NCBI GenBank assembly: GCA_001819875.1
Contig: MHNR01000023.1
Coordinates: forward strand, 54,640 to 110,119
Direction of reading: 5' to 3'
From: Candidatus Ryanbacteria bacterium RIFCSPHIGHO2_02_FULL_48_12
GTDB taxonomy: Bacteria; Patescibacteriota; Minisyncoccia; Ryanbacterales; 2-02-FULL-48-12
Length of the DNA: 55,480 nucleotides
Positions 34,928 through 47,311 of this stretch are shown here, in pieces (position 1 is the stretch's first letter; the number at the start of each line of letters is the position of its first letter). Made by a program: the position numbers and the translations under genes. The notes beneath the pieces are model-generated. The model saw only the letters and a program-made list of their open reading frames with translations, was not told the DNA's origin and searched no databases.

Positions 34928-36874
34928 CTACGGCAAAAATGCCTCACACCCCGACCACAACGCATCAGGAGCGAGCTGTCCGCACGTTCCCGTATTGTCA
35001 CCCGGGTTGGCATCCGCAGGAGTGATAGAGCCACTGTTGTTGACGCCCGTGCATGAGGCGAGATTGTTGGTGCCACTCACACTATTGGTACCTGTCGCAA
35101 GTGCGGAGACTACGGCGTTTGCCCCATTGGCGATATTTTGCTGATATGCTCGGATAGTATTGACTCCACTGCGCGAGTTACCACCCAAAGCTGATGCATC
35201 CACAATTGGATTGAAGTTGCTGTTGGCGCCAAAACGTATGAAGCTAATGGCCTTGGCGGCGGCAAGATTGATGACCGTAGCATTGGGATTGCCCATATTG
35301 CGTCCGGATACATCAAACGCCCGATCGCGCGCTACAATCCCGCCATTGAGGGAGCGTGCATCAATCACGCCACCATGTGGATCACTCGTGAGAGTGATAG
35401 CGGCTACTGCGCCGTAGCTCGTGCGATTGTCTCGGCCATGACCATTGACGGTGATATCCTTATCTGCCTGAATTTTGACGGATCCCGGGTTGGTGTTGTG
35501 CGTAACCCAAGAAAGAAGTCCACCCCACAAGTCGTATTTGCCTCCGGCGTAGTCATACTCGTCAAATAATGGTTTAGTAGTGGTCGCGTTAACAGTGACC
35601 GATCCATGAAATGCCGCCACATTGATACGCGGACGATTTTGAGTCACCGGTTGGGTATGTGCTTTGGCACGCGAGAGCACTAACCCATTAGTCATGATAT
35701 TACCTTTTTCGCAGGCAAGAATATTAATATCATTGCCGCCGTGATCAATACCAAGCACCTCTACCAAACCCGATCCTCCCTCCACGATATCACCACATTT
35801 AGAAGCGATGGTAATTTTACCCGGAAGATCGTTGGTACCCGATACCTCATCGTGCACCAAACCGTCTATCGTAATATCACCGTCAAACTGAAGGAGTATA
35901 TCCCCTGCTTTTTTGTTGAGGGAGTTTACGATGATGCCTGCGTCATCTGCAATCTCAAGCGTACATTTGGATTTGATGACAATACCCGGGGCGTATTGGT
36001 TGTTACCGGATCCTACACGCTCGGTCTTGATAATAGCACCAGGCTTTACCACCAAGGCTTTGCCGCCCAGATCAAATACCGCCTTCCAAGTATCGGGCGT
36101 GGGGCCGGATTTGTCATAGGTAACGTATGGTTGGAGCGCTGGATCTCCGATATAGGTCGGCGGGTTGGTATTAAAATTGATCGTAATATTGCTGTTTACG
36201 GTGATGGTCACGGGATTGCCCGCTCCATCACGCTCGCAGAGTGGGCAGTCTTTGACATAGGAGATACTCAAAACCTCCACCACGAGATCACAGCCGAACA
36301 CCTCGCCCTGCATGGACGGGTCGAGCTGATACTCGGGGGCGACGGAGTTAGTCTGGTCGCACTGCCCCCTGAAACACGGCGTATGGAGATCAATCACCCA
36401 ATCATCCTTGATATCGCTCTCGGACTTGGCAAGACGCCCATAGGCAATGCTGGTCGGCGCATTGGGATCATGAAATGCCGGCACACTCGTATCGTTTTGT
36501 GGCGAGTTGTCTGCAGTCTTGGAAAGATATGGACAGAGTGAGGGGTAACAACGCGTGTAGTCGGTCGGATTGGAGGCGCAGTATGCCCGCTCCTCCGGAC
36601 TGTCTATGCGGGGTTTTGGCTTTTGCAATATCCGGTACTCTACATCATCGTGTATGGGAGAGGCCAAAAATGCGCTGGAGAGATCTACGGTCAAGGGTTT
36701 AAAGTGCACCTCACCCGGAAATACCGTGGAGAACGAGATAACATTGGGGCTCACGGAAAGATTGGGATCAATCGTCACGTGTGACGCAGAAACCTGGAGG
36801 GAGAAAAACAATATTGCGCCAAGCATCGATACTGCGGCACCTACTGCAATCCATTTTTTAGTAAGAAAGTTCAT
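34928..36874 (-). CDS. TasA-like secreted surface protein with beta-helix C-terminus
   Basis: 648 residues. N-terminal SipW-type signal (residues ~8-30), then the domain shared with four paralogues: VISFSTVFPGEV, RILQKPKPR, YPSLCPYLSK, RLAKSESDIKDDWVIDL, CFRGQCDQ and FGCDLVVEV, with paired Cys. The rest is a Gly/Asn-rich beta-helix repeat region (GDITIDGLVHDEV, GNIMTNGLVLS, GSVTVNATT). Start is coupled to the 36876 gene: its TAA is one base before ATG and GGAGG lies inside that gene's end. Last gene of the SipW operon; probably fibre or S-layer-like. Confidence 0.75.
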   Translation of the reverse strand: MNFLTKKWIAVGAAVSMLGAILFFSLQVSASHVTIDPNLSVSPNVISFSTVFPGEVHFKPLTVDLSSAFLASPIHDDVEYRILQKPKPRIDSPEERAYCASNPTDYTRCYPSLCPYLSKTADNSPQNDTSVPAFHDPNAPTSIAYGRLAKSESDIKDDWVIDLHTPCFRGQCDQTNSVAPEYQLDPSMQGEVFGCDLVVEVLSISYVKDCPLCERDGAGNPVTITVNSNITINFNTNPPTYIGDPALQPYVTYDKSGPTPDTWKAVFDLGGKALVVKPGAIIKTERVGSGNNQYAPGIVIKSKCTLEIADDAGIIVNSLNKKAGDILLQFDGDITIDGLVHDEVSGTNDLPGKITIASKCGDIVEGGSGLVEVLGIDHGGNDINILACEKGNIMTNGLVLSRAKAHTQPVTQNRPRINVAAFHGSVTVNATTTKPLFDEYDYAGGKYDLWGGLLSWVTHNTNPGSVKIQADKDITVNGHGRDNRTSYGAVAAITLTSDPHGGVIDARSLNGGIVARDRAFDVSGRNMGNPNATVINLAAAKAISFIRFGANSNFNPIVDASALGGNSRSGVNTIRAYQQNIANGANAVVSALATGTNSVSGTNNLASCTGVNNSGSITPADANPGDNTGTCGQLAPDALWSGCEAFLP

Positions 36875-36875
36875 A

Positions 36876-46020: not shown

Positions 46021-46027
46021 AACAAGA

Positions 46028-47311
46028 TTATTTGGCAGTGCAGATAGCATCTATCTCTGCATCTCCGTCGTTGACTTGTGAACCGCCTGCTAGAGCAGAT
46101 ACGTAGCGGTAAGGCTTCGTAAATGTCCAGCGCGATGCGTAGTCATCCGAGATCCATGTGGACGGACCATCCGGGTACTCGGTACCCTCTATGCCGGTCT
46201 CCCAAGAACCGGTCGGGGTGTCGGATCCATAAAGCGTCGCTTCATGAGCCTCTCCCGGTACCGGACCATGATCAATGCTCGGCACGAGATACACGGCGTT
46301 GGTCGGCGTACCCATGTCCCAAAGGACCCGGGTGCTTCCGTTGGCCTGTACCCACTTGTGATCTGCGGCATCACCGGCTGTGGCGACACTCGGCATCGAG
46401 TAGGCGTAGGTAGCAGGGTCGGTCTGCTCACCGGTCGGCGGCATGGGGGATCCATCAGCCACGGTTACTGCTCCACAGGAGCTGTAGTCGGGCTTGGTGG
46501 ATACTCCGGATACCTCTACCCAGAGATCACAGCCGAACACCTTGTGCTCGTTGGCAATCGGTTGGGTGTAGTCGGCCGGATTGGCGGATGCATTGATACC
46601 ATGGACAAATGACTCCCAGTCCTGGGCGCAATAGCCACCAAAGCACGGCACTGCCAAGTCAATCATCCAGGTGTCTTTGATATCCTGGTTGGATTTGGCC
46701 AAACGTCCCCGGACATCAGTCCATGTGATGGTGTTGTTGGCGATGGTCCATGGCTGGTGAAATGAATCAAGCGCACCATCCTCATAGCCAGTAGGGGCTC
46801 CAGCCTCATTGCGTACAATCTGCGAGTGCTTGGAGAGATATGGGCAAAGGTTAGGAAGTACCCCCCAAGTCTCGCCTTGTGCAAGCTCGCGCGGAGCTGG
46901 GCCACAATCGATCCAGGAGGTCTCTGTGACACCCGTGGTCGCCGGGTTATCACCAATCTTGATGTGTCCAGTGGCGGTGTTGATGTGCTTGCCATCCGCA
47001 CCTACTGTCTCATCAAACATAGTACCGTTATTCCAGGTAATGGCACACTTCGGCTTTTGACGAATAAAATACTCGACATCATCTACCCGTCCCTCGTCCT
47101 TGAAGGATTGGGAGAGCTCAATGTCTACGGGCTTCTCTAACTTTTCCTGTGGGAATACGGTGCCAAAGTTGAGGAATTTTGGATCAACTTTGAGCGCGTT
47201 CTCGATTTTGGCGGTCACATTGATGACGTGCGCCTCAAATGCGGCAAACAGCGGCAAGGTGGTCACGGCAAGCGCAACGGCACCAAGCCCCAATGCGATT
47301 TTCTTTTTCAT
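46028..47311 (-). CDS. TasA-like secreted protein with unknown C-terminal domain
   Basis: 427 residues. Signal and N-domain as in the neighbours (LNFGTVFPQEKLEKPV, FIRQKPKC, PNLCPYLSKHSQ, CFGGYCAQDW, FGCDLWVEVSG). The last ~150 residues are a new domain: CGAVTVADGSPMPPTG, VLWDMGTPTNAVYLVPSIDH, EATLYGSDTPTGSW, DDYASRWTFTKPYRYVSALA. The final part resembles a galactose-binding / discoidin-like or jelly-roll fold, which is only a guess. First of the four-paralogue block. Confidence 0.75.
   Translation of the reverse strand: MKKKIALGLGAVALAVTTLPLFAAFEAHVINVTAKIENALKVDPKFLNFGTVFPQEKLEKPVDIELSQSFKDEGRVDDVEYFIRQKPKCAITWNNGTMFDETVGADGKHINTATGHIKIGDNPATTGVTETSWIDCGPAPRELAQGETWGVLPNLCPYLSKHSQIVRNEAGAPTGYEDGALDSFHQPWTIANNTITWTDVRGRLAKSNQDIKDTWMIDLAVPCFGGYCAQDWESFVHGINASANPADYTQPIANEHKVFGCDLWVEVSGVSTKPDYSSCGAVTVADGSPMPPTGEQTDPATYAYSMPSVATAGDAADHKWVQANGSTRVLWDMGTPTNAVYLVPSIDHGPVPGEAHEATLYGSDTPTGSWETGIEGTEYPDGPSTWISDDYASRWTFTKPYRYVSALAGGSQVNDGDAEIDAICTAK

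Follow-up and report, generated by a model that had tools for sequence, protein, structure and literature searches.

A conserved SipW-associated operon of Patescibacteria as a candidate sortase-free modular surface fibre

A block of eight minus-strand genes

The window analyzed here is a 55,480-nucleotide stretch of contig MHNR01000023.1 from Candidatus Ryanbacteria bacterium RIFCSPHIGHO2_02_FULL_48_12, and all unprefixed positions refer to it. Open reading frame analysis of the window recovered a block of eight relevant genes, all on the minus strand and at the coordinates expected beforehand, among them the five genes with a common N-terminal domain (N-domain) that a preliminary description had placed together on one strand. 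In order of transcription (g1, g2, g3, g4, asd, sip, ltd, g8), the genes and their features are as follows.

46028..47311 (-): g1; SipW-type signal, N-domain (residues 1-270) and C-module (open reading frame, N-domain alignment)
46028-46501 (-): C-module of g1; no family match in Pfam or PDB
47204..47242 (-): predicted donor strand of g1, AFEAHVINVTAKI (residues 24-36), from conservation; putative function
44475..45833 (-): g2; SipW-type signal, N-domain and VWA C-module with MIDAS motifs kept (PF00092, PDB VWA proteins)
45726..45764 (-): predicted donor strand of g2, AFEAHVINVTARI, from conservation
42733..44100 (-): g3; SipW-type signal, N-domain and two prealbumin-like (SpaA) C-modules (Pfam)
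43993..44031 (-): predicted donor strand of g3, AFEAHVINVTAKI, from conservation
41866..42633 (-): g4; SipW-type signal and N-domain only (tree, AlphaFold2 model)
42526..42564 (-): predicted donor strand of g4, AFEAHVINVTARI, from conservation
39978..40523 (-): asd; cytoplasmic tail, uncleaved TM helix (47-69), juxtamembrane strand YQALVQVVEGEGR and PapD/MSP/ASH-type Ig domain
39538..39960 (-): sip; ER-type (SipW/Sec11) signal peptidase, Ser46/His84 (TIGR02228, family profile)
36876..39524 (-): ltd; SipW-type signal, strand AFEVHVVDVKAEV, SdrD_B/SpaA-like domain and LTD, without N-domain
39303-39341 (-): strand AFEVHVVDVKAEV of ltd
34928..36874 (-): g8; N-domain without the FEAHVINVTA strand, VxA-type signal site and 444-residue C-module

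The last four genes almost abut, with gaps of 17, 13 and 1 bp separating asd, sip, ltd and g8. The 1342-bp gap between g4 and asd harbors a 23S_rRNA_IVP gene (PF05635, 3.5e-18; 41341-41676, minus strand) with extra flanking DNA. Since only 133 bp separate g4 and asd in the nearest relative (L065), this gene and the extra DNA (about 1.3 kb) look like an insertion. The product of ltd, which the preliminary description had missed, is a sixth protein of the block with a signal; it carries the sequence FEVHVVDVKA together with SdrD_B (PF17210, 3e-8) and LTD (PF00932, 1.4e-15) domains.

The ER-type signal peptidase reported for the block is encoded by sip, which matches TIGR02228 (2e-24). The closest PDB sequences to its family profile are those of ER SEC11A/C (SEC11C, 3e-17), and Ser46 and His84, with the motifs SGSMWP and IHR, are invariant. 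Both its Ser-His catalytic pair and its Sec11-type sequence place it among the ER-type/SipW peptidases. The anchored beta-sandwich protein likewise reported there is asd, with its TM helix and Ig domain. In the asd model (pLDDT 86), the TM helix is followed by a strand from residue 71 on and by the Ig domain, with Foldseek matches to SCS2, MSP, PapD-like proteins, FimC and Caf1M (probability 1.00, E about 2e-3 to 1e-2), and a profile search of PDB sequences identified Hydin/FAP47. Fold and sequence profile thus both assign asd to the PapD/MSP/ASH-type Ig group, and we predict that it serves as a membrane base or chaperone. The match between the N-domain and asd profiles is weak (probability 29%, E = 6e-4).

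One N-domain with different C-modules

An alignment of the five N-domains spans about 204-270 residues and shows Cys motifs common to all, which bears out the shared domain of about 270 residues proposed for them and establishes by sequence that they are related. Identity to g1 amounts to 78-80% for g2 and g3, 50% for g4 and 43% for g8, and six Cys are conserved in nearly all of the 54 members of the N-domain family, with large internal inserts in some N-domains. The domain has no model in Pfam or NCBIfam, and its profile yielded no match among PDB sequences. Disulfide machinery is present in the form of VKOR; enrichment of VKOR, considered as support for disulfides, was not significant (11/21 genomes with the N-domain versus 128/363 others, p = 0.16) and was discarded.

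The C-terminal parts of the five proteins, by contrast with this shared domain, have nothing recognizable in common. The g2 C-module is a VWA domain (PF00092, 5e-23, residues 275-444), as indicated by its MIDAS-type motifs (DNSGS at 281, GGSTN at 346 and TDGAP at 379) and by PDB matches that are themselves VWA proteins. Two modules follow the N-domain in g3 (PF19403, SpaA_2, 9e-11, residues 278-358; PF24514, SpaA_4, 5e-4, residues 383-452), none does in g4, and the g1 C-module matches no Pfam family, nor any PDB entry at E 10. The ends of these four proteins had been described correctly, but the beta-helix ascribed to g8 found no support in Pfam, where its tail matches no family. A secreted, repeat-rich protein of beta-helix appearance, also without a Pfam family, is encoded elsewhere in the window (8875-9891, plus strand) and shows no kinship with the g8 tail.

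A domain survey of related loci confirmed the expected variation of C-modules across relatives, with VWA in 16 of 73 proteins and several SpaA types, DUF4215, DUF642, RTX, DUF11 and others also represented. One VWA-type subunit gene (L052:8637-9915) is broken by a frameshift, which could reflect phase variation, decay or an assembly error. On an N-domain tree inferred after removal of the signal columns, the sequences fall into a terminal, g8-like class (support 100/99), an asd-proximal, N-domain-only, g4-like class (99/92) and a mixed class whose C-modules vary. A single clade of VWA carriers is rejected (p-AU = 6e-37), so that modules have been exchanged or N-domains homogenized within genomes; this upholds the notion of a single N-domain with swapped C-modules. 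As a member of the asd-proximal class, orthologous across genomes, g4 is likely a core or basal subunit. Its AlphaFold2 model is beta-rich (pLDDT 86, pTM 0.78), with low confidence in the N-terminal stretch 24-43, as would be expected of a strand without its partner; we regard this as weak evidence. A Foldseek search of PDB with the g4 N-domain model produced no confident match (best E = 0.02, probability 0.13).

A strand-length mature N-terminus in a conserved operon

In Bacillus subtilis, mature TasA starts with AFND and inserts its first strand into the next subunit, and TapA donates a like strand that starts the TasA fibre. LepB cleaves sites with an aromatic P2' poorly, and TasA, with Phe at P2' and Trp at P2, resists LepB and needs SipW. 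If the cut site in the block proteins is assigned as in TasA, the mature N-terminus AFEAHVINVTAxI hardly varies, also in proteins with nothing else in common, and positions +1 to +11 read A, F/Y, E, A, H, V/I, I/V, N, V, T and A. Across strand-bearing proteins with an N-domain (49) and without one (19), conservation peaks at +3, +5, +9 and +11 and reaches +13, and the residues ahead of the cut vary. Identity within the class of 19 is 0.89 from +1 to +9 and 0.69 from +10 to +13, compared with 0.32 for the signal and 0.23 beyond +17. Because identity is high up to +13 and low on either side, and because a cleavage site alone would not need +5 to +11, these sequences suggest selection on a strand-length mature N-terminus beyond the cleavage site. 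A donor strand would be expected to leave such a pattern of conservation, and a conserved N-terminus of this length fits the donor-strand-like packing anticipated in the preliminary description.

A degenerate DNA pattern for FE[AV]HVxxV has five matches in the 990-kb genome, all within the block, against none for the control, so that its clustering there is not due to chance. In the comparable loci defined below, the strand is present in every upstream N-domain subunit with an intact N-terminus, and it is absent from 12 of the 12 terminal-type N-domain proteins read, which have conventional-looking sites (for example VSA, VGA, VKA and VEA). The FEAHVINVTA signal attributed to all five N-domain proteins of the window accordingly holds for g1-g4 but not for g8, with its VxA-type site and no such strand. 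The earlier observation is therefore confirmed in part: the genes and domains are present, but the signal is distributed differently and the g8 beta-helix is without Pfam support. In one locus (L045) a strand-bearing VWA gene is placed after the terminal-type gene, which counts against a fibre reading.

These patterns bear on an improbable, already disfavored explanation, namely that the motif is a recognition site of this SipW clade and that the mature proteins serve as secreted matrix or adhesion components and exchange no strands. SipW substrates do have cleavage-site features in common, and the motif tracks SipW almost perfectly; yet the position of the conservation peaks, its extension to +13 and the variable residues before the cut argue for a role past cleavage, and terminal-type N-domain proteins of the same operon do without the motif.

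Of 384 genomes in the window's class, 21 carry the N-domain, and a collection of 85,000 genomes yielded 21 loci with it. All are labelled as Patescibacteria/Parcubacteria except one labelled only 'bacterium'. The lineages represented are Uhr-, Vogel-, Giovannoni-, Wildermuth-, Azam-, Ryan-, Harrison- and Doudnabacteria, together with groups without names; two Ryanbacteria genomes belong to the same order as that of the window. No relative was found in viral contigs. In 20 loci from 19 other genomes of Patescibacteria, asd could be placed, making them comparable to the block, and the gene order is the same in 20/20: one or more N-domain genes, asd, sip, a strand-bearing protein (usually of the LTD or GYWKNH type) and, in many, a terminal N-domain gene. 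Given this constancy, the block is a conserved operon. A GYWKNHEGC-type domain, without a Pfam name in the one protein scanned, replaces LTD after SipW at L046:12433, L053:12617, L059:1773, L060:12297 and L086:11273.

The SipW clade of the block is present in 16 of the 21 N-domain genomes and in 0 of 363 others (Fisher 3e-24), scoring 130-229 bits in these 16 genomes, all with the N-domain, and 61 bits for the next best. Four of the five remaining N-domain genomes have their N-domain genes at a contig end, and the fifth, G019, combines a divergent N-domain and asd without this clade, counting against a fibre reading. The distribution of asd is similar (15/21 versus 1/363). N-domain homologs and SipW hence do co-occur, and the proposal of a SipW-type system is sustained by a co-occurrence and adjacency that are nearly absolute. 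With the aromatic-P2' motif present in block proteins and the sip gene adjacent, SipW-type cleavage is predicted.

Divergent versions with asd but without the window's SipW clade lie at L116 (genome G217) and L069 (G019). At the former, asd is accompanied by an LTD-like protein with SAYEAHVMNVTA and by a g8-like protein, with two CAP-like proteins upstream. An association of SipW loss with motif loss in G019 was considered and found not to be clean, as another protein there keeps AFEGHGVTLTA.

Relation to known fibres and a proposed assembly

The block resembles the TasA/TapA/SipW system of B. subtilis and the camelysin (CalY/CapP) system of B. cereus in having an operon-encoded ER-type peptidase, a predicted cleavage site with aromatic P2', a conserved mature N-terminal strand, an accessory chaperone-like protein and no sortase, and it is laid out like the TasA system and probably works like it. 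Unlike in those systems, its subunit has six Cys, VWA or SpaA C-modules and no detectable homology to PF12389, a TM-anchored asd takes the place of TapA/CapP, and there is a strand-less terminal subunit. The TasA/camelysin membership put forward for the subunits found no support: PF12389 has no match in the genome, no N-domain protein of the window matches it at E ≤ 1, and TasA is not among the 50 best-ranked structural matches of the beta-rich N-domain model. Homology of the N-domain to camelysin was rejected on profile comparison, as hhalign aligned only the signal peptide.

Canonical camelysin (PF12389) occurs in 32 of the 384 class genomes, 30 of which also have weak SipW hits corresponding to their own SipW clade. 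Like the block, these patescibacterial loci present several paralogous subunits followed by SipW, and several of the loci read have an LTD protein after it. They differ in their PF12389 subunits, AYFSDTETS signals, lack of asd and SipW clade, which scores 37-62 bits against the block profile versus over 200 bits for intact block-type copies. Loci L098-L115 and L117 are of this canonical kind, with several paralogs, some with internal inserts, then SipW and LTD proteins.

It is conceivable, if rather doubtful, that the block is a true camelysin/TasA system whose N-domain descends directly from PF12389 and has diverged beyond recognition, a refinement compatible with a fibre. Locus layout, LTD partner and a similar signal agree with this, and no sampled genome holds both systems (PF12389 in 0/21 N-domain genomes). 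Against it stand the PF12389 and hhalign results, the lack of a counterpart of asd in the canonical loci read and the six conserved Cys, and the non-overlap is not significant by itself (p = 0.24). Mutual exclusion of the two systems was dismissed on the same figure.

Chaperone-usher and type V pili (FimH, Mfa5) have in common with the block a PapD-like Ig partner, VWA tips (Mfa5) and the logic of a strand-less tip (FimH). The block differs in that no usher gene is seen in it, the strand is N-terminal and would be freed by SipW, and no sequence homology was found. VWA and prealbumin-like SpaA modules are also found in sortase-built pili. A pilus of that kind was rejected, since the genome has no sortase, as previously noted, and no block protein has a C-terminal LPXTG sorting signal.

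Together, these results point to a sortase-free, modular surface fibre, released by SipW and assembled by donor strands in parallel to TasA/camelysin, a reading to which we assign a probability of roughly 0.6, with polymerization as its inferred step. On this model, sip would cleave ahead of A-[FY]-E-A-H, with an aromatic P2' as in TasA, and free AFEAHVINVTAxI, a well-supported step. The 13-residue strand of one subunit may then complete the incomplete beta-sandwich N-domain of the next. The uncleaved asd, with a strand beside its TM helix and its PapD/ASH-type Ig domain, would act as membrane base or assembly chaperone. Because g8-type proteins have an acceptor N-domain without a strand, they could only end a chain, showing their large C-module as a tip; because ltd-type proteins have the strand without an N-domain, they could only plug the opposite end, as TapA does for TasA. 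Side modules (VWA, SpaA and others), swapped between N-domains according to the phylogeny, would provide changeable binding functions, as VWA and SpaA suggest. Points against this reading, besides L045 and G019, are that the monomer model has no confident PDB match, that sequence homology to TasA is confined to the signal peptide, that the N-domain and asd profiles match weakly and that VKOR is not enriched. The VWA protein, previously cast as the tip, is less likely to be so than g8-type proteins, the only ones without a strand. Of the earlier interpretation, then, the SipW system, module swapping and lack of sortase are supported, but TasA membership and the VWA tip are not.

The same components might instead form a surface-display anchor, in which AFEAHVINVTAxI docks each strand-bearing protein one-to-one on the membrane-bound asd Ig domain and the operon displays separate adhesins. 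We consider this unlikely. The strand does occur in LTD-type proteins without an N-domain, the PapD-like fold of asd is known to hold strands, and a single asd is always present per operon. A docking anchor, however, does not account for an N-domain kept in nearly all subunits, nor for terminal-type proteins, in which the strand is lost but the N-domain retained. In addition, asd brings a TM-linked strand of its own, and N-domain genes are multiplied, reaching four or more at a locus, a pattern that polymer subunits would be expected to show. Returning to the fibre, we tentatively propose, with somewhat less than even confidence, that it represents a new family with a fold independent of TasA, in which g1-g4 are both socket and plug, ltd is plug only, g8 is a socket-only tip and asd a TM-linked Ig base, with swapped side modules including VWA.

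Searches of a literature collection returned no paper linking Patescibacteria with TasA fibres, camelysin or donor strands, or Parcubacteria with SipW or camelysin, and no description matching the surface system of the block; the canonical camelysin loci of Patescibacteria are apparently likewise undescribed. Little is known of how Patescibacteria make contact with hosts or surfaces, for which type IV pili are the usual explanation. The block adds a distinct and conserved surface system that does without sortase and is present in at least eight candidate lineages with names; it exemplifies the principle of SipW and an N-terminal strand with a different subunit, and predicts which protein can be the tip, which the base and which 13 residues would join them. 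A fibre of these small-genome Patescibacteria might reveal how they hold on to their surroundings or hosts.
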